64,000 nucleotides of DNA from Acetobacter garciniae (GTDB lineage: Bacteria; Pseudomonadota; Alphaproteobacteria; Acetobacterales; Acetobacteraceae): contig NZ_JAFVMH010000002.1 in assembly GCF_017377735.1 (NCBI RefSeq), positions 434,001 through 498,000 of the forward strand. Reading direction: 5' to 3'. A program made the translations under genes and the position numbers. Shown here one piece after another: positions 15,543-60,926 of the stretch. The notes beneath the pieces are model-generated. The model saw only the letters and a program-made list of their open reading frames with translations, did no database searches and was not told the origin of the DNA. Numbering within the stretch: position 1 is the first letter of the stretch; every line of letters begins with the position of its first letter.

Positions 15543-15620
15543 TAAAAGTTTTTGGTGAAGCTTTTTTCAAAAAGCTTCAAAGCACGTCGTCTTTTTGAAG
15601 GCGACACCCAAAAACTTTTA
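15543..15620 (+). repeat. Dispersed palindromic element, copy A
   Basis: Outer inverted repeat TAAAAGTTTTTGG / CCAAAAACTTTTA with two inner hairpins: GAAGCTTTTT-TC-AAAAAGCTTC (perfect 10 bp) first, then a degenerate GTCG...CGAC stem. It sits between the convergent ends of rlpA and the YihY gene. Copy E has the same orientation and copies B, C and D are inverted. Any open frame inside reads VKLFSKSFKARRLFEG and is judged spurious. Confidence 0.9.
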
Positions 15621-15635
15621 TCATTATTTCATTTG

Positions 15636-16703
15636 TCAGCCGGGCGTGGGGCCATCCACATTTTTTTCGGAGGTGGTGTCCTGCCAGGCGATCTGGCGCT
15701 GGCGGCCATGGACATAGCTTTCCATTTCCGCATTCAGTTCCGCCCCCATCAGCACCACCCAGGCGGTGACGAAAAACCACATCATCGTGGCGATCACCGC
15801 CCCCAGCGATCCATAGGTGGCGTTGTAGCTGGCCAGATGCGCCACATAATAGGAAAACAGTTGCGAGGACAAAATCCACGCCAGGGTCGCGGCCACGGTG
15901 CCGGGCAGCACCCAGCGCCAGTGCGTGCGGCGCTTGCGGTCCGGGCCGTAGCGGTACAGGGCCGACAGGGCCAGGATTTCGAACGAGAACATCACGGCCG
16001 ACCCGCTCCACCGGCCGATGAATTCGACCGAACCGGGCGGGGTGGGAATATGCAGCAGCGCAGGCAGGCTCAGCAGCAGCGGAATGGCCACCATCAGCGC
16101 GATCGTCAGGGCCGCACCCAGTACGGCTGACAGGGTCAGCGCGAAGGCCGTAATCTGGAAGACAAAGAAATTCCGGCTTTCATGCACGTTATAGGCCATG
16201 TTGAGGGCCGAAATGATCGAGCGCGTGGCGGCGGAGGCAGACCAGAGTGCGACCGTCAGCGAGACGATCAGGTTCATGGTCAGCGATGTATGGGGCTCGG
16301 CCACCAGTGTCTGCACCCGGTCGTAGATCAGGGCGAAGGCGGTGGGCGGCAGCAGGTGGCGCAGCGTGTCCATCTGCGGGGCGACGGTCTGCACGTCGAA
16401 CGCCAGCCCGTAGATCGAGATCAGCGAGCTTATGGCCGGAAAGAGCGAGAGCGTACTGTAGAAGGCGCAGCCGGCTGCGACCAGCGTCGTGGGGCCGAAA
16501 ATCAGGCTTTTCAGGGTCCGGCGCAGGATGATCTTCCAGTCCCCCAGGCGCAGGCGCGCGGGATGGGCGAGCGGTTCTGGCGCCTGCCGACCCTGCCCGT
16601 CATGAGTGTGCTGTGGTGTATCTGCCTGCGCGTCGGTTGTGGTGGGGGGCGGCGTTGCGGCGTGGTCCTGCCGCGCGGAATCGATATGACAGAGAGCCTG
16701 CAT
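15636..16703 (-). CDS. YihY/virulence factor BrkB family inner-membrane protein
   Basis: Integral membrane protein with about six helices, of the YihY/BrkB family (once wrongly called ribonuclease BN). Characteristic segments: AAGCAFYSTLSLFPAISSLISIYGLA, LWSASAATRSIISALNMAYN, the long hydrophobic ITAFALTLSAVLGAALTIALMVAIPLLLSLPALL, RWVLPGTVAATLAWILSSQLFSYYVAH and NATYGSLGAVIATMMWFF. Function is not established in the family. I chose the ATG at MQALCHIDS; an upstream in-frame ATG (MGRYVGFAL, at 16790) would add 29 residues. An 80-residue hydrophilic N-terminal region precedes the first helix. Confidence 0.88.
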   Translation of the reverse strand: MQALCHIDSARQDHAATPPPTTTDAQADTPQHTHDGQGRQAPEPLAHPARLRLGDWKIILRRTLKSLIFGPTTLVAAGCAFYSTLSLFPAISSLISIYGLAFDVQTVAPQMDTLRHLLPPTAFALIYDRVQTLVAEPHTSLTMNLIVSLTVALWSASAATRSIISALNMAYNVHESRNFFVFQITAFALTLSAVLGAALTIALMVAIPLLLSLPALLHIPTPPGSVEFIGRWSGSAVMFSFEILALSALYRYGPDRKRRTHWRWVLPGTVAATLAWILSSQLFSYYVAHLASYNATYGSLGAVIATMMWFFVTAWVVLMGAELNAEMESYVHGRQRQIAWQDTTSEKNVDGPTPG

Positions 16704-17251
16704 CGGAGACGAGGTATCCTTTTTCCTCTGGTCCGGCGGCACCGGGTGCCGGAATGGGCGGGACAGCGCAAAGCCGACATAGCGGCCCATTCTGGCTGTT
16801 CGCGGTCTTGCGTCAAGGGCGGTGCGGGCCACACCGCATGGCGGCCCGATAGGCAAAAACCCCGGTTATCGGCCTTTCACGCTGGTCCGTTCCCATGCCC
16901 GCCCCCTATTCAGCCGGGCAGCGCGCCTGCTGGCGGGGGTGGGGGAAAAACGGTCTGACGCATCAGCTAGTGCCCCCAGTCTTATCGACCCGGGCGGGGG
17001 TGTGTCATGTTTTTTCGCGCATGGGGCTTTTTTCACTTGCGCTTGTGGCGGTTTGGCCTCATATGCACGCCCCTACGCAGCAACGCACGTGCCACTGGCC
17101 CTCTGAGGTTACGCAACGACGTCAAGCGTTCTGGCAATCGGGATTACCCGGGTTGGGGTGGTCCGCCTTTGGTCGCTGGTCCGTTAGACCGTTTCGCAAC
17201 GTCCTTCTCCGCTGTATTGGCAGGAGAAGCCTGAACTGGGGGAGTGGGGAT
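16704..17251 (+). promoter_or_regulatory. Long leader of ornithine decarboxylase, candidate structured RNA
   Basis: A 548-bp stretch without a supported gene, upstream of ornithine decarboxylase. Near its end are GGTC-CGTTA-GACC (about 17178-17190) and a perfect 7-bp hairpin CTTCTCC / GGAGAAG (17204-17210 with 17223-17229), just before the GGGGGAG Shine-Dalgarno. Alpha-proteobacterial ornithine decarboxylase genes are known to carry the speF RNA motif (Rfam RF00518) in this place. I cannot confirm the match from memory of its consensus, so this is a candidate. Confidence 0.4.
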
Positions 17252-18382
17252 ATGAATCCCAAAATCACCCGTTTTCTTGCCGAGCAAAAGCCGGCAACGC
17301 CCTGCCTTGTCGTCGATGTGGACGAGGTGGAAGCCCGCTATCGCGCCCTGGGCCGCGCCCTGCCGCAGGCGCGTATCTATTACGCCGTCAAGGCGAACCC
17401 TGCCATGCCGATCCTCAGCCGTCTCGTGGGGCTGGGCTCGTGCTTCGACGCCGCCTCGTGGGAGGAAGTGTCCCTGTGTCTTCAGGCCGGGGCGGAGCCC
17501 GACGCCATTTCCTTCGGCAATACGGTCAAGAAGGTGTCCGCCATCCGCGCCGCTTATGAGGCCGGGGTGCGCATGTTCGTGTTCGACTGCCGTGAAGAGC
17601 TGGAAAAACTGGCCCGTCACGCGCCGGGCAGCCGTGTGTATTGCCGTCTGCTGGTCGATAATTACGGGGCGGAATGGCCGCTGTCGCGCAAGTTCGGCAC
17701 CACGCTGGAATCTGCGCGCGAACTCATGCTCGCCGCGCGTGACCTGGGGCTGGACCCGTATGGCCTGTCCTTCCATGTGGGCAGCCAGCAGCTTTCGTCC
17801 GACGCGTACGAGGCCGCCATCGGTCGCGTGGCCACACTGTTCACCGACCTTTCTGCGGCCGGGCTTGAACTGCGCATGATCAACCTGGGTGGCGGTTTCC
17901 CGATTCGCTACCGCGAGGACGTGCCCGAGATCGACCATTTCGCGCATGCCATCTGCCACGCCATGACAGAGCATTTCGGCAATGCCCTGCCTGAAATGCT
18001 GGTCGAGCCGGGCCGTTTCATCGTGGGTGAGGCCGGTGTGGTGCGTTCGGAAGTCGTGCTGGTCAGTGCGCGCGGCCGCACGGACGGCCTGCGCTGGGTG
18101 TATCTGGATATCGGCCGTTTCGGCGGGCTGGCGGAAACGGAGAACGAATCCATCCGCTACGCCATCCACACCGGTCGGGACAATGCGCCCGCAGGCCCGG
18201 TCGCCCTTGCGGGGCCGACCTGCGACGGCGCGGATATTCTGTACGAGAAAAGCCGTTACGAACTGCCGCTGGACCTGGAATCAGGCGAGATGGTGGACCT
18301 GCTGGGCACAGGGGCGTATGTGTCCACCTATTGTTCAACCCGTTTCAACGGTTTTGCCCCGCTGGGCGAGTACTATATCTGA
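17252..18382 (+). CDS. Ornithine decarboxylase, PLP fold III (eukaryotic-like)
   Basis: Type III PLP decarboxylase of 376 residues that makes putrescine from ornithine, consuming a proton. The PLP lysine lies in YYAVKANP (Lys47). HVGSQQ, the phosphate-binding NLGGGFP, EPGRFIVGEAG and the active-site cysteine motif GPTCDGADILYE (Cys324) all match ornithine decarboxylases and not diaminopimelate decarboxylases. The ATG at MNPKITRFL has a GGGGGAG Shine-Dalgarno. Some close relatives also accept lysine. The gene is followed 145 bp later by a YfdX-family gene. Confidence 0.93.
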   Translation: MNPKITRFLAEQKPATPCLVVDVDEVEARYRALGRALPQARIYYAVKANPAMPILSRLVGLGSCFDAASWEEVSLCLQAGAEPDAISFGNTVKKVSAIRAAYEAGVRMFVFDCREELEKLARHAPGSRVYCRLLVDNYGAEWPLSRKFGTTLESARELMLAARDLGLDPYGLSFHVGSQQLSSDAYEAAIGRVATLFTDLSAAGLELRMINLGGGFPIRYREDVPEIDHFAHAICHAMTEHFGNALPEMLVEPGRFIVGEAGVVRSEVVLVSARGRTDGLRWVYLDIGRFGGLAETENESIRYAIHTGRDNAPAGPVALAGPTCDGADILYEKSRYELPLDLESGEMVDLLGTGAYVSTYCSTRFNGFAPLGEYYI

Positions 18383-18527
18383 AGGATAGGGTGCAGGGGG
18401 CAGGCCCGAACCGTAGTGCTGGCAGGGCGCGGGATGGAAGTCCCGCGCCTTTGTGCTGTCGGGCGTTCGCATGTCCGCGACCCGCAAGGCGCGCAAACGC
18501 CATGGGGTTGTGGGGGAGAGAGGATTC

Positions 18528-19295
18528 ATGAAACCAACCGCTTCATCATGCACACGGCTTTGCGGTGCGGCACTGGCAGGCATGGTGGCGATTCTGGGCG
18601 GTTGCCCCGGTCTGGGCCAGCACCTTGGCCCCCGGCCGGTTCTGGCTCAACCTGTTGCCCAAACTGCCGCTCAGCCCGGTGCGCGGCTCACGGCCCAGCC
18701 GAACACGCAACCCGTGGCCCAGGCTTTTGCCCGTCTTTCCCGCGATGGCGGGGCGGCTTTCGAGAACCTGACCCTTGCCCGCCGCGCCATTTTTGATGGG
18801 GACACGCCCAGTGCCGCCCCGCTGATCCTGGCGGCGCGCCAGGCCCTCGATCACGCCCAGGCCGACAAGACCGCCTTTCTGAAGGCCGAGGCCGAGCTTA
18901 TGCCCACCCGCGTGGGCCAGCCGCCGCGCCAGATCGTATCGGGGGCCGAGCAGATGCTCTGGCTGCCGATCGGGGGCGAACTGGTGCTGGACGACATGCA
19001 GGAACCGACCGAGGAACGACTCGCGGTGCTGGCGGCGGCCAATCGCCACCTGCTGGCGGGCGATCTGGCCCGCGCGGCGGAAATCCTGCGCGTCACCAGT
19101 GTGGATGCCAATTACGTCATGACCGCCATGCCGGTGGAAAAAACCCGCCAGGACGTGGCGCGGGCCGCACGCCTGATCAAGACCGATCCCTACAAGGCGG
19201 GCGAAGCCCTGCGCGAGGCGGAAAATGCGGTGCGTTATGCCTCCGTCGCCATTCAGGCGGTGGTCACCCCGCAGGACACGACGGCAACGCCCTGA
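18528..19295 (+). CDS. YfdX family protein, exported
   Basis: A 255-residue protein whose residues about 75-245 match the YfdX family (FENLTLARRAIFDGDTPSAAPLILAARQALDHA, EERLAVLAAANRHLLAGDLARAAEILR, EALREAENAVRYASVAIQ). In E. coli, YfdX belongs to the EvgA acid-response regulon and chaperone-like behaviour has been reported. The N-terminal 45 residues look like a signal peptide (MVAILGGCPGLGQ), possibly a lipoprotein with LGGC. It is followed by a Gln/Pro/Ala-rich linker with repeated QPVAQ, QPGAR and QPNTQ. The ATG has a GGGGGAGAGAGG Shine-Dalgarno. Position after ornithine decarboxylase fits acid stress. Confidence 0.82.
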   Translation: MKPTASSCTRLCGAALAGMVAILGGCPGLGQHLGPRPVLAQPVAQTAAQPGARLTAQPNTQPVAQAFARLSRDGGAAFENLTLARRAIFDGDTPSAAPLILAARQALDHAQADKTAFLKAEAELMPTRVGQPPRQIVSGAEQMLWLPIGGELVLDDMQEPTEERLAVLAAANRHLLAGDLARAAEILRVTSVDANYVMTAMPVEKTRQDVARAARLIKTDPYKAGEALREAENAVRYASVAIQAVVTPQDTTATP

Positions 19296-19393
19296 CCGGC
19301 CCGGTTTCTGCCGGTTTGTGGCGCCCGGACTCCGGGCCTTGGAGCACGGCTGTGGAGTGCGAGCCGCGCGTGGGGCAGGCCGACCCCTAACCC

Positions 19394-20062
19394 TTATTCC
19401 GCCGCCGCGCGTAATCCGGCTCCCGCTGCCAGGGGGCACAGGGGCAGGGCGGCAGCCACAAAGGCCCCCAGCAGTTCCAGGTCGGGCTTGAAGGGCAGGC
19501 CGGTGGTCGCGGCATCTATCGCGGCTGCACCGAAAATCAGCGCCGGGGTGGCCAGTGGCAGGGTCAGGAGCGGCAGCAGGACGCCCCCCCGCCGTGCCCC
19601 CAGCACGATGGACGCTCCCATGCCACCAATGAGCGACAGCACCACAGACCCCAGGAACAACCCGCCCAGCAGCACCGGCAGGGTGGACGCGGGCAGGCCC
19701 AGCATGGTGGCCAGGGGGATTGCGGCCAGCAGCAGCGGCACGCCCGTTGTCAGCCAGTGGGCGGTCATTTTGGCCAGGGCCACAAGGGCGGGCGGCAGGC
19801 CCAGCAGCAGAAGCTGATCGAGCGAGCCATCCTCCAGTTCCGCGCCGAACAGCCGGTCCAGCGGCAACAGGGCTGCCAGCAGCGCGCAAACCCAAAGAAT
19901 GCCCGGGGCCATATGGCGCAGCAGGGCGGGTGAGGGGCCTAGGGCGAGTGGGAACAGGGTGGCGGTGACAATAAAGAACAGCACGGCCCCCAGCGTATCC
20001 GCGCCGTGGCGCAGGGCCAGCCGCAGGTCACGCAGGACAATGCCCCAGAACAGCGCGGTCAT
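19394..20062 (-). CDS. ccmB: Heme exporter protein CcmB
   Basis: Six-helix membrane subunit of the CcmABCD ABC complex of system I cytochrome c maturation, 222 residues. Family segments: FWGIVLRDLRLALRHGADTLGAVLFFIVTATLFPLALGP, DRLFGAELEDGSLDQLLLLGLP and GARRGGVLLPLLTLPLATPALIFG. Its ATG overlaps the ccmA stop by four bases. No ccmC follows; the next gene downstream is convergent yfdX. Confidence 0.94.
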   Translation of the reverse strand: MTALFWGIVLRDLRLALRHGADTLGAVLFFIVTATLFPLALGPSPALLRHMAPGILWVCALLAALLPLDRLFGAELEDGSLDQLLLLGLPPALVALAKMTAHWLTTGVPLLLAAIPLATMLGLPASTLPVLLGGLFLGSVVLSLIGGMGASIVLGARRGGVLLPLLTLPLATPALIFGAAAIDAATTGLPFKPDLELLGAFVAAALPLCPLAAGAGLRAAAE

Positions 20063-20874
20063 GCATAGGCTCCTTCGTCATGCAGGTCGGCGGGGGGCAG
20101 GGTCAGGGTCGTGGCATCGGGCAGGGGCAGGGGCACATGGGTGGTCGCAATTACCAGCCCGCCACCCGCGCGGTGCCGCGCCAGCGCCGCCCCCAGCAGG
20201 TCTATGGCGGCGTGGTCCAGCCCCAGGCTTGGTTCGTCTAGCAGCCATAGCGGGGCCCGGGCCAGCAGCACGCGCGCCAGGGCGGTGCGGCGCTTCTGCC
20301 CGGCGGAAAGCAGGCGCGCGGGTAGGTCGGCCAGCGGGAGCAGGTCCATGGCCGCAAGCGCGTCGGTCATGTTCGGCCATGCAGTCTGGCCCCGCTGTGC
20401 GCCGGGGGCATGGTCTTTGGCTGGGTTGTCGCTGTCCTGTGCGCTGTCGGCCCCAGCGCGCCCGGCCCGGGCGAAAAGGGCCAGGTTCTCCACCACGCTC
20501 AGCCCGGGCTTGAGCGCGTCCTGGTGGCCCAGATAGGCCACGCGCGCCGCATGGGCGGCCGTGTCGGCCCCGACGGGGTGCCCGTGCCAGAGCACCGTCC
20601 CCGAATCCGGCTGGCGCAGCCCGGCCAGCACCCGCAGCAGGGTGGACTTGCCCGCCCCGTTCGGGCCCCTGAGCAACAGCGCCCCGCCTGTGCCAAGGCT
20701 GAACCCCACGGCATCGAGCACCAGCCGGTTGCCCCGGAACACGCACAGGTCCTCGACCACCAGCGCCGTGCCTTCGGGCGTGCCATCCTGTGCCGCGCCT
20801 GCTGTCGGGCGGGGCACATCCCGGGGCGTGGGGTGCGGGGTGTCAGGCCCCGTGCCGGGTGCCGTGTTATGCAT
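20059..20874 (-). CDS. ccmA: Heme exporter ATP-binding protein CcmA
   Basis: ATPase of the CcmABCD complex that releases holo-CcmE for delivery of heme to c-type cytochromes. Walker A is GPNGAGKST and Walker B is LLDEPSLGLDH. The signature is the degenerate LSAGQKRR typical of CcmA. At 271 residues it is longer than the roughly 205 residues of E. coli CcmA: there is an extra 35-residue N-terminal Pro/Thr tail, and a roughly 30-residue insertion (ADSAQDSDNPAKDHAPGAQRGQ) before the signature. Divergent from acnA. Confidence 0.94.
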   Translation of the reverse strand: MHNTAPGTGPDTPHPTPRDVPRPTAGAAQDGTPEGTALVVEDLCVFRGNRLVLDAVGFSLGTGGALLLRGPNGAGKSTLLRVLAGLRQPDSGTVLWHGHPVGADTAAHAARVAYLGHQDALKPGLSVVENLALFARAGRAGADSAQDSDNPAKDHAPGAQRGQTAWPNMTDALAAMDLLPLADLPARLLSAGQKRRTALARVLLARAPLWLLDEPSLGLDHAAIDLLGAALARHRAGGGLVIATTHVPLPLPDATTLTLPPADLHDEGAYA

Positions 20875-21177
20875 CTGAACAGGCCGCCCAGCGGCGGCAT
20901 TGGCCGCAAAAACGGGTGCGGGCCCAGGGATAAGGGGGAAACGGCATGCCGGAGATAGGACTTCTCCTTATTGTTACCAAGCGATTGCGCCAAAAGCGGG
21001 AAAGCTCTCGTTCTCGTGGTTGCTACCCCGCTTGTGCCTTTCCCAACTGCCGGTATGTTCTAGCCCCAACGGGATAGCAAGCCGGTAACCCGTAAGAAGC
21101 GGGTCTGCACGCCGGAGCGTGCGGCGGTATCCTGAACGTATCACCAGCCGTCGGCTGTGATCGGGGAGAAAGCAACT
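20875..21177 (+). promoter_or_regulatory. acnA-ccmA divergent region with leader hairpins
   Basis: Holds the promoters of acnA and ccmAB. Near the acnA start it has three potential RNA stems: CCCG-TAAGAAG-CGGG, GCACGC-CGGA-GCGTGC, and ATCAC(C)AGCCG / CGGCTGTGAT at 21140-21161. The last ends one base before the GGGGAGA Shine-Dalgarno. Their function is unknown. Confidence 0.4.
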
Positions 21178-23871
<2,694 letters not shown>

Positions 23872-23902
23872 GCAGAACTTCGTTCAAGGTGATGCACAGA
23901 CT

Positions 23903-23933: not shown

Positions 23934-23947
23934 GCGTAGAAGCCCCT

Positions 23948-27648: not shown

Positions 27649-27727
27649 TAAAAGTTTTTGGGTATCGCCTTTTTTCAAAAAGGTGACGTTCATGAAGCTT
27701 TTTGAAAAAAGCTTCACCAAAGCCTTT
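27649..27727 (-). repeat. Dispersed palindromic element, copy B
   Basis: Left end TAAAAGTTTTTGGG, inner stems TCGCCTTTTTTC...AAAAAGGTGA and GAAGCTTTTTGAAAAAAGCTTC, and a decayed right end (CCAAAGCCTTT). Placed between the convergent LysR gene and the hypothetical gene at 27795. Same orientation as copies C and D. Confidence 0.85.
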
Positions 27728-37227: not shown

Positions 37228-37300
37228 AAAAGTTTTTGGGTGTCGCCTTTTTTAGGTGACGTTCGTGAAGCTTTTAAAAAAAGCTTTACCAAAAACTTTT
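37228..37300 (-). repeat. Dispersed palindromic element, copy C
   Basis: The shortest copy (73 bp): AAAAGTTTTTGGG at one end, CCAAAAACTTTT at the other, with inner stems GTCGCCT...AGGTGAC and GAAGCTTTT...AAAAGCTTT. Between the convergent rbfA and chemoreceptor genes. Orientation as B and D. Confidence 0.9.
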
Positions 37301-44633: not shown

Positions 44634-44714
44634 TAAAAGTTTTTGGGCGTCGCCTTTTTTCAAAAAGGTGACGTTCTTTGAAGCTTTTTGAAAAAAGCTT
44701 CACCAAAAACTTTT
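44634..44714 (-). repeat. Dispersed palindromic element, copy D
   Basis: The best preserved copy: TAAAAGTTTTTGGG, stem CGCCTTTTTT-C-AAAAAGGTGACG, stem GAAGCTTTTTGAAAAAAGCTTC, then CCAAAAACTTTT. Lies after the glycoamylase-family gene and before the bidirectional terminator, in a convergent junction. Confidence 0.92.
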
Positions 44715-44774
44715 CAGTATTGAATGGGATGTTTCGGGCAGGCTTTTGAACAGTCTCCCGCCTGTTCAGGCATA

Positions 44775-44828
44775 AAAAACAAGGGTGCGGGCGGCCTGTT
44801 TTACCAGCCTTCCCGCACCCTTGTTTTT
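44775..44828. terminator. Bidirectional intrinsic terminator
   Basis: A perfect 17-bp inverted repeat AAAAACAAGGGTGCGGG / CCCGCACCCTTGTTTTT with a 20-nt loop. The flanking A and T runs give a T-tract in both directions, so it can end both the glycoamylase transcript and the fumarase-VOC transcript. Confidence 0.93.
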
Positions 44829-46998: not shown

Positions 46999-47042
46999 GG
47001 TCTTGTCTGTTCTCCCATAGGCCGTTGCCCCCTGGCGGGGGG

Positions 47043-47849: not shown

Positions 47850-48150
47850 TTGCAAGAGGTGGGAGGGCTTCTGTTGCCCGGTGCCCTCCCGAACCGCGCT
47901 TATCGCTTATGCAGCGACAGCGAGCACCTCAGAGTTATCATTGGCACTTGTGAAAATAGCCCGATATCGGTGGTACAATGCCGAGCAAAAAAAGTGTCTT
48001 TACTGCGCGTGTCGAGCCTGTTTCGTCCCCTGCGATCCGGAGCATACCTGCCCGGATACATGGTGGAGACGCCGGGTACCGCCCCCGGGTCCACTACGCC
48101 TATGCCACACCCCGTTTATTGCCATAGCCGCAAGAAATCTTCCGGCACCC
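47850..48150 (-). ncRNA. ssrA: tmRNA, circularly permuted two-piece form
   Basis: On the minus strand the acceptor piece comes first, ending CGTCTCC-A-CCA at 48061. A roughly 30-nt spacer (48060-48031) containing ATCCGG / CCGGAT follows. Then the coding piece starts GGGGACGAAACAGG at 48030. GGGGACG pairs with CGTCTCC over 7 bp with a U-G at the third pair, the alanine identity element. The tag frame at 47945-47907 reads ANDNSEVLAVAA and stop, with GCC as resume codon. A GGGAGGGC / GCCCTCCC hairpin (47890-47861) closes the coding piece. Outer ends are approximate. Confidence 0.93.
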
Positions 48151-48304
48151 GAAACATAGGCACCCCTTGGGCCCAATGCAAGCACGCACGGGGCTTTTGC
48201 CCCTTTTATCCCGCTGGGCTAGCCTGTACAAGCGCCCGGCGCGCCCCGGTCTGAGCCGGCCCGGGCGCGCTTTGTTGCAGCCCAGCATGGTGGAGGCCCC
48301 GCGC

Positions 48305-53329: not shown

Positions 53330-54889
53330 ATGCCCTTGTCTGTTCGTCTGTTCGGTACCGTCTCCCTTTCCGGCCTGTTGATGGGGGCCAGCCTGTGCGC
53401 TCCGGCATGGGCGCAGAACCCCGCCCCGAATGGCGCTGCCCCGCCCGCGGCACCCGCCCCGGCCATAGCGGTATCGGGGGCGCGTCCCGTGCCCGACAGC
53501 TTTGCCGACCTGGCTGCCCGCCTGCTGCCTGCCGTGGTCAATGTCTCCACCACCCAGACGGTGCGGGGGGATTCGTCGGATGATGACGATGATGACGACC
53601 AGCAGCCGCAACTGCCGGATTTTCCGCGCGGTTCCCCGTTCGAGAAATTCTTTCATGATTTCATGAACCGCCAGACCGATCCCAACGCCCCGCCGCGGCG
53701 CATGCAGGCCCTGGGGTCCGGCTTCATTATCGACCCCGCGGGCTATATCGTGACCAATAACCACGTGATCCACCGCGCGGACCGGATCACGGTCACCTTG
53801 CAGGACAACACGGTGCTGACGGCGCGCGCCATCGGCCATGACGACCGAACGGATCTGGCCCTGCTGAAGGTCGAGAGCAAGAAACCCCTGCCGTTCGTCT
53901 CCTTCGGGGACAGCGACCACCGCCGCGTGGGGGACTGGGTGCTGGCCATCGGCAATCCGTTCGGCCTGTCGGGCACGGTCACGGCGGGTATTATCTCCTC
54001 ACGCGGGCGCAATATCGACCAGGGCCCGTATGATGACTTCATCCAGACCGATGCCCCCATCAACAAGGGCAATTCCGGCGGCCCGCTTTTTGACATGGAC
54101 GGCAATGTCATAGGCGTGAACACGGCCATTTACTCGCCCTCCGGCGGGTCGGTGGGTATCGGCTTTTCCATTCCCTCGGACGAGGCGCGCGGCGTGGTCG
54201 AGCAGTTGCGCAAGAGCGGCAAGGTCTCGCGCGGGTGGCTGGGTGTGCGTATCCAGAACGTCACGCAGGATATTGCCGACGGGCTCAGCCTGCCTTCGGC
54301 CAGTGGCGCGCTGGTGGCCGGGGTGGAAAAGGACGGTCCCGCCGCCAAGGCCGGGCTGAAGACGGGGGACGTCATTCTCTCGCTCAATGGCAAGCCGGTG
54401 GATGGCCGGGCCCTGCCGCGCCTTTCCGCGCAACTGCCCGTGGGCGGGCAGGCCCATCTGGGGCTGTGGCGCAAAGGCAAGACGCTGGATACGCCCATAA
54501 CCATCGCCGCCCTGCCCGAAACGGAGGACGACCCCACCCCCAAGCCGGTGCCCGACCACAAGGGCGCCAATTCGCTGAGCTTTGCCGATTTCGGTTTTTC
54601 CGTCAGCGCGCTGGACGCCCCGGCCCGGCAGAAATACGGGCTTTCCCCCGGGCAGAAGGGGGTCGTGGTCACCGCCGTGCATGATGACGGCGTGGCGGCC
54701 GATCGCGGGTTGAAGGAAGGGGATGTGATTACCGAGGTCCAGCAGGCCGAGGTCAACACCCCCGCGGCGTTGAAGCAGCGCATAGAAGCGGCCCGCAAGG
54801 ACAAGAAACGCTCCGTGCTGCTGCTGGTGCATGATGCCGACGGCCTGCGCTGGGTGCCCCTGCCGCTGAACGGGGATGACACGCCCTGA
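53330..54889 (+). CDS. Periplasmic serine protease, Do/DegP family
   Basis: HtrA-type protease/chaperone, 519 residues, with signal peptide (LFGTVSLSGLLMGASLCAPAWAQ). Catalytic triad His145 (TNNHV), Asp175 (DDRTDLALLK) and Ser249 (GNSGGPL). PDZ1 about 290-385 (RGWLGVRIQNVTQDIADGL, GPAAKAGLKTGDVILSLNGKPV) and PDZ2 about 410-510 (GVVVTAVHDDGVAADRGLKEGDVITEV). An acidic run of seven Asp (84-90) sits in the regulatory LA-loop region. Upstream Shine-Dalgarno weak. Confidence 0.95.
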   Translation: MPLSVRLFGTVSLSGLLMGASLCAPAWAQNPAPNGAAPPAAPAPAIAVSGARPVPDSFADLAARLLPAVVNVSTTQTVRGDSSDDDDDDDQQPQLPDFPRGSPFEKFFHDFMNRQTDPNAPPRRMQALGSGFIIDPAGYIVTNNHVIHRADRITVTLQDNTVLTARAIGHDDRTDLALLKVESKKPLPFVSFGDSDHRRVGDWVLAIGNPFGLSGTVTAGIISSRGRNIDQGPYDDFIQTDAPINKGNSGGPLFDMDGNVIGVNTAIYSPSGGSVGIGFSIPSDEARGVVEQLRKSGKVSRGWLGVRIQNVTQDIADGLSLPSASGALVAGVEKDGPAAKAGLKTGDVILSLNGKPVDGRALPRLSAQLPVGGQAHLGLWRKGKTLDTPITIAALPETEDDPTPKPVPDHKGANSLSFADFGFSVSALDAPARQKYGLSPGQKGVVVTAVHDDGVAADRGLKEGDVITEVQQAEVNTPAALKQRIEAARKDKKRSVLLLVHDADGLRWVPLPLNGDDTP

Positions 54890-54997
54890 TCCCGCTCCTG
54901 GCCCCAGGCCGCCCGACGCGCACGCCCCGGGCTGAATGCCGCTCCGGCCCCCCGCAGGACAAGAGCCACCTCTTTTTTGCAAGGGGCGGCTGAACCC

Positions 54998-56044
54998 ATG
55001 CGGAACATGGCATCCCTTTTCGCGCGCTGGCGGGCGGATACGACCGTGCGCCAGACCGTGCGCCTGCTCAGCGCCGTGGGGCTTGCGGCCTTCGTCGCCT
55101 GGCTTATCAACTTGCAGGAACCGGGCTGGGCGCTGATCACTTCTGTCATCGTCACGCAGAACAGCATTACCGACACCATTTCCAAGGGGCGGGACCAGCT
55201 TGTCGGCACGTTGATCGGGGCGTCCGTCAGTATCGTGCCCATTACGCTGATCGCGGTGCTGCACTGGCCGTTATGGATCGCCTTCACCCTGGCTTTCGTG
55301 CCGCTGGCCGTGCTGGTGTCCTGGAAGCCGGAGGCCCGCATGGGGGTGGTGACGCTGATGATCGCCATTCTCTTCCCCACCAATAACAGCCCGTATCTGC
55401 AACCGGTCGAGCGGGTGCTGGCCATTCTGATCGGGGTGGGGGTTTCCACCGTGGTCACCTATGTGGTGCTGCACGAACAGGCCCGGCGCGATGCGTTCCG
55501 CAGTGCGGCCCAGACCGTGCGCCAGATCGTGGACATGCTGCAAAAAGCCCGCTCGCGCGATGTGGGCTGGCCCCAGATCCAGGACATGAACGACGATTGC
55601 GCGGCCTCCCTGCGCAAGGTGCAGGCCGCGTTGGAGGAAGCCCGGCGCGAACACTGGCGCCCGCTCGAGGCGCGCGACCCCATGCTGGCCCGCCTGCCGC
55701 AGGGGCTGCGCCAGTTGCAGATCGACGCCTTGGTGGTGGCCCGCGCCCTGCTCAGCCTGCCCGACGGGGCGGTGGCCATAGACCCGCAGGAGGTGGCGAC
55801 CATCCGCGCGGGCATGCAGCGCGGTTTCGGCTGGATCATAGAACGCTGCGAAAGCGAGGCCGTGGCCCGCACGGGGGAAGACCGCCGTGTGGCCGCGGGG
55901 GTGATTTCGGCCCTGCCATCGCTCAGCGCAACCGGGGACCCGACCATTCGTTTCCTCGTGGGTATTCTGCTTGCCGACCTCAAGCAGTTGATCGGCCTGC
56001 TGGGCGATGACGACACCGAACGTCCGGCCCCAGATCCCACCTGA
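54998..56044 (+). CDS. FUSC family membrane protein (aromatic-acid exporter-like)
   Basis: A 348-residue protein with six N-terminal helices (SAVGLAAFVAWLINL, GTLIGASVSIVPITLIAVL, WIAFTLAFVPLAVLVS, VVTLMIAILFP, LAILIGVGVSTVVTYVVL) and the FUSC signature WALITSVIVTQNSITDTISKGRDQLVGTLIGA. A cytoplasmic helical region follows. FUSC proteins are linked to efflux of aromatic acids or fusaric acid; the substrate is unknown. ATG 54998 has AAGGGGCGG upstream. Confidence 0.85.
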   Translation: MRNMASLFARWRADTTVRQTVRLLSAVGLAAFVAWLINLQEPGWALITSVIVTQNSITDTISKGRDQLVGTLIGASVSIVPITLIAVLHWPLWIAFTLAFVPLAVLVSWKPEARMGVVTLMIAILFPTNNSPYLQPVERVLAILIGVGVSTVVTYVVLHEQARRDAFRSAAQTVRQIVDMLQKARSRDVGWPQIQDMNDDCAASLRKVQAALEEARREHWRPLEARDPMLARLPQGLRQLQIDALVVARALLSLPDGAVAIDPQEVATIRAGMQRGFGWIIERCESEAVARTGEDRRVAAGVISALPSLSATGDPTIRFLVGILLADLKQLIGLLGDDDTERPAPDPT

Positions 56045-56189
56045 CGGACTGCTGGCATCGGGCAGGGGCAAGGTGGGCGATATGGGTCGCAGAGACAGGG
56101 ATACCGGCTACAAGAACAACGGCCCGGCGATAAATTAGGAGAACGCCGCCCAGAAGATGACCGGCGGACAGAGGCAGGAAGGAACAGTT

Positions 56190-57173
56190 ATGGTAGCGCA
56201 GTCAGATAGCGTGGTGCGAATTCATCGGACCGGTGGGCCGGAGGTGCTTCAGGTCGAGAGCGTACCCGTAGCCCAGCCGGGGGAAGGGCAGGTTCTGCTG
56301 CGGCAGGATGCCATAGGCGTGAATTTCATCGACACGTATTTTCGCGCGGGCCTTTACAAATTTCCCTCCATGCCGGGCATTCCCGGCATGGAAGGGGCCG
56401 GTGTGGTCGAGGCCGTGGGGCCGGGTGTCACGACCCTCAAGGTCGGGGACCGGGTGGCCTATGCGGGCGTGCTGGGGGCTTATGCGCGTTACCGCGTGAT
56501 CGCGGCCGACAGGCTGGTGGTGCTGCCCGATGGCGTGCCCACCGATGTGGCGGCGGCGGTCATGCTGCGCGGGCTTTCGGCCCATATGCTGCTGCGCCGG
56601 GTGCATGAGGTGCGTGCGGGTGAGAGCATTCTTGTCTACGCGCCGGCAGGCGGTGTTGGCCAGTTTTTGTGCCAGTGGGGCAAGCATCTGGGGGCCCGGG
56701 TCATTGGCGTGACCTCGTCCGAGAAAAAAGCCGAAATCGCGCGGGCCTGCGGTGCTGCTGACGTGGTGGTGGGTCGGGACAACCTGCCCGAACGCATCCG
56801 CGAACTGACGGGGGGCAGGATGGTGCCCGTGGTCTATGACAGCATCGGTCGCGACACGTTCGAGGCCAGCCTGTCCTGCCTGGCCCCACGCGGGCTTATG
56901 GTCAGTTACGGCAATGCGTCGGGTCCGGTCACGGGGGTCGATGTCGGCACGCTTGCCACCCATGGCAGCCTGTACCTGACCCGCCCGACCATGATGACCT
57001 ATGTTGCCGCCCGCGCGGACCTGGAAAGTGCCGCCCACGAACTGTTCGGCCTGCTTGTGGCCGGCGTTCTGCGGCCCAGCATCGGCCAGCGTTTCGCGCT
57101 CAAGGATGCAGCCCAGGCCCATCAGGCGCTGGAATCGGGCCAGACGACCGGCAGCACGATCCTGATCCCCTGA
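56190..57173 (+). CDS. qor: NADPH:quinone oxidoreductase (zeta-crystallin type)
   Basis: Zinc-free medium-chain dehydrogenase/reductase of 327 residues that reduces quinones with NADPH. Motifs: IGVNFIDTYFRAGLY, PGIPGMEGAGVVEAVGPGVTTLKVGDRVAY, the nucleotide-binding VYAPAGGVGQFLCQWGKHLGARVIGVTSS and YGNASGPVTGVD. The ATG at MVAQSDS has an AGGAAGGA Shine-Dalgarno, better than an upstream in-frame option. Confidence 0.93.
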   Translation: MVAQSDSVVRIHRTGGPEVLQVESVPVAQPGEGQVLLRQDAIGVNFIDTYFRAGLYKFPSMPGIPGMEGAGVVEAVGPGVTTLKVGDRVAYAGVLGAYARYRVIAADRLVVLPDGVPTDVAAAVMLRGLSAHMLLRRVHEVRAGESILVYAPAGGVGQFLCQWGKHLGARVIGVTSSEKKAEIARACGAADVVVGRDNLPERIRELTGGRMVPVVYDSIGRDTFEASLSCLAPRGLMVSYGNASGPVTGVDVGTLATHGSLYLTRPTMMTYVAARADLESAAHELFGLLVAGVLRPSIGQRFALKDAAQAHQALESGQTTGSTILIP

Positions 57174-57457
57174 GCGGACACACCGCCCATAGGTGCAAGC
57201 GCAGGGCAGGTATGATCCCACCTGCCCATGCCGGGTTCGGGGCCTGCGTCGCAAGGCGGTCGGCTGGGCCTGGCAGGACGTTCCCGGCCTGGAAACGGGG
57301 CTTTTGATGCGTCTTGTGCGGCCGATGCGCTCTGGTCGTCATGCGGGTTTTCCACACCCGTGGGCCAGATGGCATGACGTGGGGGCACGGATGCGCTAGG
57401 ATGATGCGATCGCCCGGCCCTGGTCGGGTGGCCCATGAGTTTCAAGGATGCTTCGAA

Positions 57458-57571
57458 ATGGCGAATTGCCCCGTAAAATGTCCCAAATCCCCCTGCGTGC
57501 GCGGCCTGCTGCTGGTTGGCCTGGCCGCAGCCGCGTTCTTCTTCTTCCGCAAGAAGAAGTGCTGCGCCTGA
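57458..57571 (+). CDS. 37-residue Cys-rich membrane peptide
   Basis: A short frame with AAGGA 10 nt upstream of its ATG: an N-terminal part with three cysteines (MANCPVKCPKSPCVRG), one hydrophobic helix (LLLVGLAAAAFFFF) and a basic, Cys-rich end (RKKKCCA). The composition is far from random for this GC-rich DNA and a strong terminator follows about 60 bp later. Probably a real small membrane protein of unknown role. Confidence 0.6.
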   Translation: MANCPVKCPKSPCVRGLLLVGLAAAAFFFFRKKKCCA

Positions 57572-57632
57572 GCATGGACCCCGCGCGGGCCAGGGGGTGA
57601 TCCCCCTTGGGCTTGCGCGTCAGGACATATCG

Positions 57633-57670
57633 AGACCCCGTCAGGCCTGGCCGGACGGGGTCTTGTTTTT
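57633..57670 (+). terminator. Intrinsic terminator after the small membrane peptide
   Basis: Stem AGACCCCGTC / GACGGGGTCT (10 bp) with an 11-nt loop and a TTGTTTTT tail. It ends transcription from qor and the small peptide gene. The rest of the 57572-57887 gap has no gene; it should hold the promoter of the next gene. Confidence 0.88.
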
Positions 57671-57887
57671 GGGGCATGAACCCGCTTGGGGAGGGTGCGC
57701 GCAATTATGGCTGCGACGGATAACGTTTTTCCCGCTCCTGTGTTAGGGTGGCCTTACGCGGCTTGGCGCCGCTGGCCCTGTGAGCAGATGTTTCGGATAG
57801 CCCGGCCCCGGTCGCCCTTTTAGGAACGCGGCCTGCCTTTGCCTGATCCGGTCTGCCTGGGCCTGATGAAGGAAAGGATAGAGACCG

Positions 57888-58574
57888 TTGCAATCTCCTG
57901 CCTCACGTTTTTCCTCTCACGCCACGGTGATGGTGGCGAGATGCGCGTTCGCCCTGTTCGGCCTGGGCACTGCGGCCCTGGTCGCGCTGCCGTCTGCGGC
58001 ACATGCCCAGGCTTCAGTTCTGCTGAAGAACCAGCAGGCTGGCGCTGTTGTCGAAACGGTGGATCGCGACGCGCGAGAAATTCTGCTGCGTGAAGATAAC
58101 GGTCACCTGCTGACCGTCGAATACGGATCGGCCGTCAAGGACCTGCCCCACATGCATGAGGGCGACCACCTGCGCATCAGCTATGTGGAAACGCTGGGCG
58201 CGCAGATCGCCCCTCCCGGCAGCCCTATGCCTGAATCCACGCTGACCACGGCTCGCGGCTTCGTGCATGGGCATCCGCGCGGGGTTATCGCCGCCTTCAA
58301 CCGTGAGCGCGCGACGGTCAAGACCATCGACCTGAAAACGCACACGCTCTCCTTCGTCACCGATGACGGCAGCCTGCACGTGACCGTGCTGCGCACCCAG
58401 GCCATGCAGGATTTCCTGGCAACCCTGAAGGTGGGCGACGTGGTGGATATCACCCGTATGGAATCCATCTCCTATGTCATTACCAGCAAGGTCGTGCCCC
58501 AGCCGCAGGCGGCAACCCCGCAACTGGCCGTGCCTGCGGGGGATGTGGTCTCTGCCGCGCCAGCCGGCCAGTAA
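57888..58574 (+). CDS. Uncharacterised exported protein
   Basis: A 228-residue protein starting at TTG with a strong AAGGAAAGGA Shine-Dalgarno; an ATG at 57930 lacks one. The signal peptide ends at PSAAHAQ. The mature part is beta-rich: two similar segments, VVETVDRDAREILLREDNGHLLTVEYGSAVKDLPHMHEGDHLRISYVETL and VIAAFNRERATVKTIDLKTHTLSFVTDDGSLHVTVLRTQAMQDFLATLKVGDVVDITRMES. They look like an internal duplication of a small OB/barrel-like domain. Similar copper/cation-binding-like proteins occur in proteobacteria, but I cannot assign a function. Confidence 0.75.
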   Translation: MQSPASRFSSHATVMVARCAFALFGLGTAALVALPSAAHAQASVLLKNQQAGAVVETVDRDAREILLREDNGHLLTVEYGSAVKDLPHMHEGDHLRISYVETLGAQIAPPGSPMPESTLTTARGFVHGHPRGVIAAFNRERATVKTIDLKTHTLSFVTDDGSLHVTVLRTQAMQDFLATLKVGDVVDITRMESISYVITSKVVPQPQAATPQLAVPAGDVVSAAPAGQ

Positions 58575-58666
58575 GTCGGCCGGGCAGCCTGGCCCCGGCC
58601 TTGCCTGCCCAACGGGTGGGCCCGTGGGGCAGGCTGGCCATGGGCCCAGCGGTAGATAACCCGATC

Positions 58667-59455
58667 ATGATCCACGCCTCTCCTGTCAGTCTGCGGCATT
58701 ATGGTGTGGGTCACGCCAGCCATACGCATGAGTTCGTGCAGATCGTCGTACCCGTGCAGGGGGCGTTATGCCTGGAAGTGGCGGGCCGCCAGGCCTGCCT
58801 GACCGAAAGCCAGGCCGCCTATGTGGGGGCGGGGGCGGCCCATGCGCAGGAAGCGCGCGGGGGGAACTGTTCCCTCGTGCTTGAACTGGACTCCGCCGAA
58901 ATCAGCCCTGCTCTGGCGGAAAATCTTGCCGGGCAACGTTTCTTTTCGCTTCCACCGGGGGCGAGCGCATTTGTTTCCTACATGGCGCTCAGCCTGCGGC
59001 ACAGGCAGCCATCGGCCCTTATGCTCGCACAATGGAAAAGTCTGCTGCTGGCCGAACTGGCCCCGGGCGACAGCCTGCCCGGCGGGCGGCTGGCGACCCT
59101 GCTGGCGCGGATCGATGCAAACCCCGCCGCCCATTGGACCATTGCCGCCATGGCGCGCACACTGGGGGTCAGTGCCAGCCGGGTGCATGTCCTGTTTCAG
59201 CACGAACTGGGAACGACCCCCCGGGCATGGCTGGTGCAGCGCCGCTGTGCGTGGGCCCGCACATGGCTGGAGACGACAACCCTGCCACTGGCGGACATAG
59301 CCTGCCGCGCGGGCTATGCCGACCAGGCTGGCATGACGCGCGCCATACGGCACGAGACGGGCCTGCCACCCGGTGCCTACAGGCGATTGTGGCGCGAGTT
59401 GGAGACAAAACCACAAGACCCCCCGACAAGACGGAGCAGCCCCTTCGTTTCATAG
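58667..59455 (+). CDS. AraC family transcriptional regulator
   Basis: A 262-residue regulator: N-terminal cupin sensor (HASHTHEFVQIVVPVQGALCLEVAGRQACLTESQAAYVGAGAAHAQEA, with His residues) and C-terminal double HTH (WTIAAMARTLGVSASRVHVLFQHELGTTPRAWLVQRRCAWARTWLETTTLPLADIACRAGYADQAGMTRAIRHETGLPPGAYR). It is 9 bp upstream of the EamA transporter on the same strand, so it probably controls or accompanies that exporter. An in-frame ATG nine codons earlier (58640) is possible. Confidence 0.9.
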   Translation: MIHASPVSLRHYGVGHASHTHEFVQIVVPVQGALCLEVAGRQACLTESQAAYVGAGAAHAQEARGGNCSLVLELDSAEISPALAENLAGQRFFSLPPGASAFVSYMALSLRHRQPSALMLAQWKSLLLAELAPGDSLPGGRLATLLARIDANPAAHWTIAAMARTLGVSASRVHVLFQHELGTTPRAWLVQRRCAWARTWLETTTLPLADIACRAGYADQAGMTRAIRHETGLPPGAYRRLWRELETKPQDPPTRRSSPFVS

Positions 59456-59464
59456 ACATGCGGT

Positions 59465-60445
59465 ATGAACACGCATGATGTGGCAACACCGCGATTGGGA
59501 ACCCGGCAACTGGGCGAAGGGATTGCCTGCGGCATGGGCGCGGGGGCGCTATGGGGCGTGATTTTTCTGGCCCCCGAGCTGATCGGGCCCTTTACCCCCA
59601 TGGAACTGGCATCCGGGCGTTATCTTTTTTACGGCCTGTTCGCGCTGGTGCTGATAGCCCCCCGGTGGGGCCGTATCAGCCGCCATATCGCACAGGCCGA
59701 CTGGTGGCGGCTGGGCTGGCTCTCCCTTGCGGGCAATACGGCGTATTACGTGCTGCTGTGCAGTGCGGTGCGTTATGGCGGCGTGGCCATGACATCCCTC
59801 GTGACCGGTTTTCTGCCCGTCGTGGTCGCCTGCATCGGCAGTCGTGGCGGGCATATTTCCCTGACCCGGTTACTGCCCGGCATGGCTTTATGTGTGGCGG
59901 GCGCTGCCTGCATTGCGTGGCAGGCCATGGCCATACCGGCGTCAGCCATGGCCCCGGCCCCGCTTGGCGGGCTGGCCTGCGCGCTGGCGGCCCTTTTGTG
60001 CTGGGCGGGTTTTGCGGTGGGCAACGCCCGGGCCATGGCGCTCCTCGATCAGATCGGCCCCATGGACTGGAGCCTGCTGATGGGCCTTGTCACGGCGGCC
60101 CAGGCGCTGGTGCTGGCCCCTGTGGCGTTCGGCCTTGATCGCGTGGCGCATTCCGCGCCCCTGTGGTGGCGGTTCGGGCTGGTCTGCGCGGGGGTTGCGG
60201 TTCTGGCCTCCATCGGTGGCACGGCGCTGTGGAACCGCATGAGCCAGCTTTTGCCCCTGACACTGGCCGGGCATATGGTCCTGTTCGAAACCCTGTTCGC
60301 GCTGCTGTATGGTTTCGTGTGGGAACAGCGGCTGCCGACCGTGCTGGAAAGCCTGGCGTTCTGCTGCGTCATGCTCAGCCTGCTGGCCTGCGTGCGCGCC
60401 CATGGAACACGTGACCATGCCGCCGGGCAGGGCGATCTTTTTTGA
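59465..60445 (+). CDS. EamA/DMT family transporter
   Basis: Ten-helix drug/metabolite transporter of 326 residues with two EamA repeats (about 22-150 and 168-310). Seen: GMGAGALWGVIFLAPELIGPFTPMELASGRYLFYGLF, GNTAYYVLLCSAVRYGGVAMTSLVTGFLPVVVAC and the second repeat ending LTLAGHMVLFETLFALLYGFVWEQRLP. Likely an exporter of amino acids or metabolites; substrate unknown. Follows the AraC gene by 9 bp. Confidence 0.88.
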   Translation: MNTHDVATPRLGTRQLGEGIACGMGAGALWGVIFLAPELIGPFTPMELASGRYLFYGLFALVLIAPRWGRISRHIAQADWWRLGWLSLAGNTAYYVLLCSAVRYGGVAMTSLVTGFLPVVVACIGSRGGHISLTRLLPGMALCVAGAACIAWQAMAIPASAMAPAPLGGLACALAALLCWAGFAVGNARAMALLDQIGPMDWSLLMGLVTAAQALVLAPVAFGLDRVAHSAPLWWRFGLVCAGVAVLASIGGTALWNRMSQLLPLTLAGHMVLFETLFALLYGFVWEQRLPTVLESLAFCCVMLSLLACVRAHGTRDHAAGQGDLF

Positions 60446-60475
60446 CGGGCTTCAATACGGAGGAAAACAGCCATC

Positions 60476-60817
60476 ATGACATCGGAGTCTGCGTATCATC
60501 ACTTCACTCAGGTCGATATCCGGGTGGGCACCGTGCTGGCGGCCGAGCCTTTTCCCAAGGCGCGCAAGCCTGCATGGAAGCTGAGCATCGATCTGGGGGA
60601 TGAAATCGGGGTCAAGCGTTCCAGTGCGCAGATCACGGCACTTTACACGCCCCAGGACCTGGTGGGGCGGCAGGTCATGTGCGCGGTCAATCTCGGCCCG
60701 CGGCAGATCGGGCCGTTCATATCCGAAGTGCTGACCCTTGGCGTTGCGGATGAGAACGGCGCGATCGTGCTGCTCCAGCCCGAACGGCCGGTCCCCAACG
60801 GGCAGAAAATGTTTTAA
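60476..60817 (+). CDS. csaA: tRNA-binding domain protein, CsaA-like
   Basis: A 113-residue single OB-fold tRNA-binding domain (FTQVDIRVGTVLAAEPFPKARKPAWKLSIDLGDEIGVKRSSAQITALYTPQDLVGRQVMCAVNLGPRQIGPFISEVLTLGVAD), the length and pattern of CsaA. CsaA has been described as a secretion-related chaperone in Bacillus, and relatives bind tRNA. Its start lies 30 bp after the EamA stop. GGAGGAAAA upstream. Confidence 0.9.
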   Translation: MTSESAYHHFTQVDIRVGTVLAAEPFPKARKPAWKLSIDLGDEIGVKRSSAQITALYTPQDLVGRQVMCAVNLGPRQIGPFISEVLTLGVADENGAIVLLQPERPVPNGQKMF

Positions 60818-60848
60818 AGCCTATTCAAGAAATATCGGCTGAACCGAG

Positions 60849-60926
60849 AAAGGTTTTTGGTGAAGCTTTTGCCAAAAGCTTCAGGGAACGTCGCCTTTTT
60901 GAAAAAAGGCGACACCCGAACTTTTA
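60849..60926 (+). repeat. Dispersed palindromic element, copy E
   Basis: AAAGGTTTTTGG, stem GAAGCTTTTGCCAAAAGCTTC, stem GTCGCCTTTTTGAAAAAAGGCGAC, then CCCGAACTTTTA. Both inner stems are intact while the ends are slightly decayed. The last 13 bases (CCCGAACTTTTAT) are duplicated directly at 60932-60944. Between convergent csaA and ilvD. Orientation as copy A. Confidence 0.88.

Follow-up and report, generated by a model that had tools for sequence, protein, structure and literature searches.

In this work we have examined a short palindromic element which occurs five times in a stretch of 64,000 nucleotides from Acetobacter garciniae (the window), that is, in positions 434001-498000 of contig NZ_JAFVMH010000002.1 (C12) of a 3.81-Mb draft genome; in the labels used below, C stands for contigs of this genome, G for other genomes, g76 and g89 for other genera and L for fetched loci. 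Genes were called with a home-made hexamer gene finder, whose stop positions are surer than its starts. Nine convergent gaps were called in the window, five of which hold a copy of the element, and all the remaining gaps are without one. The flanking genes are ordinary, nine of the ten having a Pfam match and one having none, and copies 1 and 5 are inverted relative to copies 2-4. In the following list the bit scores refer to R1, a covariance model built from the five window copies and used for the census of this genome and its relatives, and the arms are the outer parts of a larger unit to which we return below. Copy 4 is the best R1 match of the genome, though it is itself among the five sequences that built the model.

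15544..15619, minus strand: core copy 1, 89.1 bits, between convergent RlpA-like (DPBB_1) and BrkB-like genes; neither arm above threshold.
27650..27727, plus strand: core copy 2, 90.2 bits, between a LysR-type regulator gene and a convergent gene without a Pfam match; left arm of type X above threshold.
37228..37300, plus strand: core copy 3, with a shortened hairpin A and 75.5 bits, 22 bp past rbfA and facing a chemotaxis receptor gene in a convergent gap; on the right an arm of type Y above threshold.
44635..44714, plus strand: core copy 4, 107.2 bits, between convergent glycoamylase-like and glyoxalase-like genes; both arms above threshold.
60849..60926, minus strand: core copy 5, 81.8 bits, between a tRNA-binding-domain gene and a convergent dehydratase (ILVD/EDD) gene.

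The core consists of AAAAGTTTTTGG, hairpin A (GTCGCC type), a short linker, hairpin B (GAAGCTT type) and CCAAAAACTTTT, the first and the last of which form an outer stem of 12 bp. With up to two mismatches, AAAAGTTTTTGG occurs nine times in the window against 2.0 expected, a number reached in none of 100 shuffles, and eight of the nine occurrences fall inside core copies. RNA folding of the five cores on both strands gave z-scores of -3.5 to -7.4, an equally stable fold being reached by 0 to 2 of 200 shuffles, and a closed three-way shape was predicted on both strands for four copies and on one strand for copy 5. No Rfam family reached its gathering score at the cores, the only two matches in the window both being at the gene for tmRNA. 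A preliminary description, made from the window alone, had listed five near-identical copies with outer inverted repeats and two inner hairpins in a three-way shape, all of them in convergent junctions. We found every copy again within 1-2 bp, and both the folding and our gene calls agree with that account; the copies do form one family, the word near-identical being slightly strong for a mean column identity of 91% once the cores are turned to one direction.

What could such a core do? T makes up about 45% of the nine positions after the core and A about 45% of those before it, positions which belong to the arms of the larger unit, and the RNA of either strand is predicted to form a branched hairpin followed by CUUUU and then by a U-rich stretch. 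Since T-rich tails are present on both strands and the copies lie right behind stop codons, a two-way end of transcription is the simplest function. Most likely the core has been kept as a two-way transcription-end element which works in either orientation, a role in termination that we infer from the sequence.

The preference for convergent gaps extends to the genome as a whole. With R1, 145 matches were listed over both strands among the 150 of 697 first-look candidates that were scored; weak copies may have been missed, and the counts are to be read as at least. We mapped 110 distinct places, 52 of them in a full scan of C12:1-778000 (C12:801470, outside the stretch scanned, was left out) and 58 on other contigs from the scored list. 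The contexts were 38 convergent, 14 tandem and 0 divergent on C12 and 44, 13 and 1 on the other contigs, which makes 82 convergent, 27 tandem and 1 divergent for the genome-wide tabulation of neighbouring gene orientations that the preliminary description had proposed. An equal spread over tandem and divergent gaps, which it had named as speaking against its account, was not seen in this genome, but divergent gaps of genus g89 were not depleted relative to tandem ones. No copy has its midpoint inside a called gene, and ten copies overlap a gene end, by 2 bp in seven cases and by 33-40 bp in three. Among C12 gaps which are at least 80 bp long or hold a copy, 38 of 78 convergent, 14 of 235 tandem and 0 of 93 divergent gaps are occupied (Fisher's test, convergent against the rest, 2e-20), and 28% of the intergenic bases of C12 lie in divergent gaps. 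All 27 tandem copies are closer to the upstream stop (median 35 bp) than to the next start (median 198 bp; p = 1.5e-8), the core pointing in the sense direction in 16 and in the antisense direction in 11. Could the element simply avoid promoters? When the 150 bp before every start were forbidden, 20,000 random placements gave a mean of 20 and a maximum of 34 convergent copies out of 52, against the 38 observed, and the fraction of placements reaching 38 was 0, 0 and 0.00015 with 100, 150 and 200 bp forbidden, respectively. The convergent bias in this genome exceeds what promoter avoidance yields in simulation.

Some details of the census stand apart. The spread is uneven, with 52 copies in the 778 kb of C12 and at least 14 listed on the 887-kb C1. 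The sole divergent copy of the 110 (C6:19694-19772, or L171:15695-15773) is flanked by open frames of 596 aa (minus) and 324 aa (plus), a call that may be wrong, as a 465-aa plus-strand frame overlaps the left 596-aa frame. The copies at C23:246986-247039 and C34:160705-160758 carry an apparently identical internal deletion between two CTTTT repeats, by which hairpin B has lost its 3' half and the right outer arm most of its length. A different repeat, CCAAAGGGCGA.CGCCCTTTG..GGGTCAAGGGCAAAGCC, is present in two convergent gaps without the element (C12:504546-504825 and C12:673207-673363).

The element of about 80 bp that had been delimited in the window is the middle of a transposon-like unit of about 160 bp. 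For the tests of arms and conservation we used 92 of the 110 copies, leaving out 18 with less than 50 bits. Among the flanks of these copies, 27 left and 24 right ones match a 15-bp end, GAGACTGTTTCAAAA, with at most four mismatches, where 0.2 per 92 would be expected; 47 of the 49 offsets listed place the end 33-47 bp away from the core, and convergent gaps without the element, which served as a control, showed 0 of 41 matches on either side. When two arm types, X and Y, were fitted, 104 of 184 flanks exceeded the 99th percentile of shuffled flanks, and at least one arm remnant was found in 75 of the 92 full copies. Where both arms were seen, the order was X-core-Y in 14 copies, Y-core-X in 10, XX in two and YY in three. 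The whole unit measures 146-166 bp in the nine copies of this genome which have both ends, and we regard it as a miniature inverted-repeat transposable element (MITE) for the reasons given below. The following features of the window lie around or beside the cores.

44743..44757, minus strand: terminal inverted repeat at the right end of the MITE that surrounds copy 4, reading GAGACTGTTCAAAAG on that strand.
60805..60970, no strand assigned: whole 166-bp MITE around copy 5, each terminal inverted repeat four mismatches from GAGACTGTTTCAAAA.
44775..44828, no strand assigned: canonical terminator-like hairpin in the gap of copy 4, outside the element, AAAAACAAGGGTGCGGG..CCCGCACCCTTGTTTTT, read by eye.
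15431..15500, plus strand: piece of another, core-less MITE with a GAGACTGTTTC-type end in the gap of copy 1, beginning at the stop codon of the upstream gene; 84% identical by blastn to C12:755635 and C12:682380.

An insertion of the unit can be read on the N. hansenii plasmid NZ_CP094849, where, at the stop codon of a dotG-like gene, a core lies inside TAA-GAGACTGTTTGAAAAC ... TTTTCAAACAGTCTC-TAA. The same place is without the element on the K. medellinensis and K. europaeus plasmids, the two that were read, which provides the comparison with empty sites suggested in the preliminary description; at the left border of the plasmid copy there seems to have been a later insertion of an IS630-type element. 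By eye, TAA flanks one of the nine both-ended copies of the window's genome, C23:235373, left and right. Directly at the core borders no target duplication was found (5 of 92 copies with at least 5 bp against 4.2 expected); the true ends lie 33-47 bp further out. The genome also contains an 881-bp insertion sequence (IS; L280) with DUF4096 and DDE_Tnp_1 domains and GAGCCTGTTTGAAAA ends, which differ slightly from those of the MITE. Its frame stops after 197 aa, while three relatives carry one annotated 825-bp gene. These three, annotated as IS5 family transposase, come from Gluconobacter, from Komagataeibacter and from the N. hansenii plasmid already mentioned. Targets of the 3-bp form TNA are reported as the habit of the IS1031 group (PMC12016507). 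As the ends and the probable TNA target fit the IS1031 group of the IS5 family and a related IS is present in the genome, the element is probably an old, non-autonomous MITE of IS1031 type, moved by a putative transposase of that kind. A search by its ends for the exact autonomous IS in this genome, in seven genomes (exact pairs at IS length) and in the fetched loci found only a related IS, and a blast of one arm against plasmids returned mostly chance matches. On C12, a scan for paired ends (at most four mismatches each, 60-220 bp apart), which has low power with decayed ends and a hairpin B that itself resembles the end motif, gave 35 pairs and no 160-bp unit without a core; of the three pairs which touch no element, two are units of another MITE and the third is probably due to chance.

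A second MITE family, with the GAGACTGTTTC-type end and another interior (TCAGTCGGGTCGGTCTG.GCGGGTCTTTTC), was met at positions 15431-15500 of the window, at C12:682380-682477, 755635-755713 and 23224-23288 and in L277 and L278; its copy at C12:682380 has TTA on both sides. We also considered repetitive extragenic palindromes (REP) or bacterial interspersed mosaic elements (BIME) mobilised by a REP-associated (RAYT) transposase and rejected them, as PF01797 had 0 matches in the genome and the control search was positive in 5 of 14 named genomes. From the earlier suggestion of a mobile MITE/BIME-like family we therefore keep the MITE, given the IS5-type ends and the pair of filled and empty places, and drop the BIME or REP, as the genome has no Y1 transposase.

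Even in recognisable arms, identity to the consensus was 0.70-0.73 in the ends and 0.69-0.75 in the spacers, and over all flanks the ends reached 0.64-0.65. In the cores of the 92 copies it was 0.867 for the left outer arm, 0.886 for hairpin A, 0.946 for hairpin B and 0.957 for the right outer arm, with 0.685 in a four-base linker stretch. This decay of the arms around a kept core is the pattern that selection on the core would leave. The 18 weak copies keep mainly the right half in eight cases, mainly the left half in five and neither clearly in five. Double changes which keep a pair numbered 35 against 24.5 in shuffles, and one of 500 shuffles reached 35; the covariation signal is modest, and template switching could yield the same signal.

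The unusual part of this element is that the interior of its core flips in place, which became visible in G181 and G228, sister genomes of genus g89. Sufficient flanks were available for 34 G181 copies, 21 of which were placed in the G228 stretches compared, 17 with a copy in both genomes and four without a clear copy in G228; the 13 unplaced ones, for most of which the stretches compared did not cover the matching place, include L286:2338, which has a same-direction partner by an earlier pairing. Among the 17 shared copies 13 have the same direction, two of these calls (L284:12611 and L284:4088) resting on low scores, and in four an interior of about 56 bp is inverted. Nine pairs were compared letter by letter, six of them being the same and three flipped. 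Between L283:6440 and L292:16764, for instance, the flanks are 97% and 100% identical over 80 bp, whereas the interior is 70% identical as it stands and 93% identical when turned. In the pair L282:6399 and L293:11615 the linker GTCTTTCGAAGC is shared after turning, which argues for inversion in place rather than replacement by another copy. The outer 12-bp arms are natural switch points, and the mixed order of X and Y in the window's genome is accounted for by flips of the core interior. Inverted hairpin interiors have been described in chloroplast spacers (PMC2903610) and in yeast genes (PMC8604942).

How widely is the element spread? R1 matches were found in 8 of 41 genomes of a first set, all of the same genus as the window's genome, and, some stronger and some weaker, in 28 of the 200 genomes compared from the family, both counts including the window's genome. 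Downstream of rbfA, several genomes of this genus have sequences identical, as printed, to named Acetobacter loci, such as those of A. okinawensis, A. syzygii, A. fabarum and A. peroxydans, which points to Acetobacter as the genus. The covariance search among relatives which had been proposed earlier thus finds the element in 18 of 102 genera, but patchily. There are many copies in G014, G017, G018 and G012 of the same genus and in the genera g76 and g89, whereas the five sister genomes of the window's genome on an IF2 tree, in which G108 was not included, yielded no copy in an R1 screen whose stricter filters lose weak matches. In G013 all eight orthologous convergent gaps compared are without the element, the intergenic DNA being too diverged for exact empty sites. 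For these two reasons we rejected, for this sequence, an ancestral terminator kept throughout the family. A phage origin was rejected as well, one core as query having no match in 50,697 phage records. Six Komagataeibacter/Novacetimonas plasmid records hold the element, the best with 94.9% identity over 98% of the core, and six of the seven annotated plasmid places have genes on both sides in an incomplete gene table, two convergent, four tandem and none divergent. The plasmid copies and the patchiness suggest transfer between genera and later bursts. The contexts in g89 were 23 convergent, 20 tandem and 5 divergent, a count which takes both genomes of the sister pair, so that some places, one divergent among them, are counted twice; in G017 they were 9, 9 and 0, and four further copies in each of the two sets lie at stretch edges, eight in all without an assignable context. 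The convergent excess holds in g89 (p = 5e-9, with 32 convergent, 104 tandem and 39 divergent gaps called).

Two observations on relatives may be added. About 17 of 35 places in G017 cluster inside 450 kb (C1:2.09-2.54 Mb) of its 3.6-Mb chromosome. In the same rbfA gap, palindromes of similar plan with other stems, having AAAAGTTTTTTGG-like outer arms and hairpins with CTTTTTTTCAAAAAAG tips, are found in Gluconacetobacter (L103, L105-L107, L109), a metagenome (L120) and G226; among the loci L103, L105-L107, L109 and L120 only L120 has a clear R1 match. Perhaps these palindromes of distant Acetobacteraceae belong to a wider superfamily. Elsewhere in the window there are a permuted (alpha-type) tmRNA gene at 47860-48185 on the minus strand and a repeat with a 33-bp step at 2959-3439, inside the called gene 2934-3509.

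We propose that the element is an IS5-type MITE whose core persists as a two-way transcription end or 3'-end protector and whose interior flips in place, and give this reading, with its putative terminator, transposase and flipping mechanism, a probability of about 0.58. A unit of about 160 bp with ends GAGACTGTTTSAAAA would be moved in trans by an IS5-type transposase and inserted at TNA sites, as seen on one plasmid and presumed elsewhere. Its core would act as a two-hairpin palindrome closed by the 12-bp outer stem, with an A-rich stretch before and a T-rich one after, so that transcripts of both strands would close with a branched hairpin and a U-rich tail. Copies would be kept right behind stops, and chiefly between convergent genes, because one core could end transcription or protect the 3' end both ways, and at the places where they were kept the arms would have decayed while the core did not. 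The 56-bp interior would flip because the ends of the core are inverted repeats, most likely by template switching of the polymerase, and the function would tolerate the flips because the element is two-faced.

A number of results weigh against this proposal. Canonical terminators were found at 14% of 70 ends with the core masked and at 22% of 94 convergent ends free of the element, and the former were lower at all three settings, but their usable stretches are shorter too; the difference is too small for us to claim that the element replaced other terminators. In the comparison of eight gaps with G013, a strong canonical hairpin accompanies the element in two; one of these is the gap of copy 4, where the hairpin at 44775-44828 is evidence against the element being the sole terminator. 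On the G013 side, three of the eight gaps show a canonical hairpin by eye. A test of low power on tandem copies found no dependence of G-U versus A-C mismatches on the transcribed strand. The contrast between tandem and divergent gaps taken alone is weak on C12 (p = 0.013 to 0.083, depending on the gap cut-off), and recognisable ends are rare in g89 (6 left and 3 right of 42) and in G017 (1 and 0 of 16). Lastly, copies were found by their cores, a bias which favours conserved cores, and template switching by itself is reported to homogenise short inverted repeats (PMC8604942). The filtered MITE and the domesticated terminator offered in the preliminary description may both hold, one after the other, as a MITE whose core was kept, given the convergent bias beyond simulation in this genome and the better conservation of the core than of the arms. 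The search for terminator loss gave no clear difference.

Is the element perhaps nothing but a parasite? A MITE which inserts anywhere between genes and survives only where it is harmless, behind stops, would owe its palindrome and its conserved core to transposition biology or template-switch repair. Its MITE ends, the filled place with empty counterparts and the burst-like spread, with about 110 copies here and none found in the five sister genomes, are what such a parasite would show, and in g89 similar shares of divergent and tandem gaps are occupied (5 of 39 against 20 of 104, p = 0.46). In addition, the pneumococcal BOX, RUP and IS elements are also enriched in convergent gaps, which their describers read as tolerance (PMC3049150), and by this analogy tolerance would be the main rival of our proposal. 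The convergent excess in this genome, however, survives the forbidding of 100-200 bp upstream of every start, decay has gone further in the arms, which movement should require, than in the core, and one g89 core (L291:16235) fills a convergent gap 5 and 7 bp from the two stops. We consider a pure parasite unlikely. A stabiliser of RNA 3' ends, whose branched hairpin would block 3' exonucleases on both convergent mRNAs while termination happens elsewhere or by Rho, seems to us still less probable. It would suit the strong folding on both strands, the position near stop codons and the low score of the core in a simple scan for GC-hairpin terminators (-7.0 with its flanks against -21.7 for one canonical example), and the title of a reference in PMC2903610 reports protective 3' inverted repeats in chloroplasts; the T-rich tail on both sides, however, fits termination and would be superfluous for a stabiliser. 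The least credible to us, by a long way, is an element acting as DNA in the manner of a BIME, its palindrome extruding as a cruciform or binding a protein that relieves supercoiling between convergent genes. Such an element would show the convergent bias and the use of both core directions (14 X..Y and 10 Y..X, and 16 sense and 11 antisense in tandem), but the tandem copies also hug the upstream stop, 27 of 27, and the genome has no Y1 (REP-associated) transposase.

If our proposal of a MITE with a persisting two-way core is right, a bacterial mini-transposon has been turned into a genome-wide set of transcription ends, and each copy has an internal control in its decayed ends and kept core. 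A bolder form of it, which we hold tentatively and at somewhat less than even odds, is that of a mobile invertible terminator: the IS5-type MITE would hand ready-made two-way transcription ends to convergent pairs, after which the core would be selected and the transposon ends would rot. After a burst (some 80 convergent pairs here) many operon 3' ends would then carry one sequence, and the flipping of the core would be the visible sign that only its symmetry matters. The flipped copies are natural pairs which differ in little but core direction and offer a direct test of a two-way terminator. The case is also a caution: template switching, and not selection alone, can shape conserved palindromes at the ends of genes.

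In the open literature on repeats of acetic acid bacteria and on MITE-borne or bidirectional terminators, judged by titles and the beginnings of abstracts, no published repeat was recognised as this element. The nearest in kind is SPRITE of Streptococcus pneumoniae, a short MITE-like repeat with a terminator-like long stem and a U-rich tract (about 48% U), of which 15 copies are convergent and 15 upstream of a gene and whose convergent enrichment its authors tie to its form (PMC3049150); both are small terminator-like repeats enriched at convergent 3' ends. SPRITE is described there as a single 18-bp duplex with AAAA/TTTT ends, for which no similar pneumococcal IS ends are given, while our element is set apart by its two hairpins with three-way closure, IS5-type ends, T-rich tails on both strands and flipping. 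With IS5-family MITEs that have IS1031-group ends it shares a probable 3-bp TNA target, GA-CCTGT-type ends and a length of less than 200 bp without a gene (PMC12016507), as well as a related IS in the same genome and on the plasmid that carries two copies; unlike them, it has an inner palindromic core which survives after the ends decay. REP and BIME are likewise palindromic, dispersed and frequent between convergent genes (PMC1525189), but the core here is larger, the ends are of IS5 type and this genome has no Y1 transposase. The Caulobacter-type CIR repeat is described with a GANTC motif (PMC2229807), of which the core consensus, by eye, has none. The small inversions of chloroplasts (PMC2903610) and the template-switch inversion of yeast (PMC8604942) have in common with our case that an interior between short inverted repeats flips while the flanks stay; here, however, the interior has about 56 bp and two hairpins, it belongs to a multi-copy bacterial element and it was flipped at 4 of 17 shared places. 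MITEs and terminator-like convergent repeats are both known as kinds, and what is new here is an IS5-type MITE with an invertible, terminator-like core.

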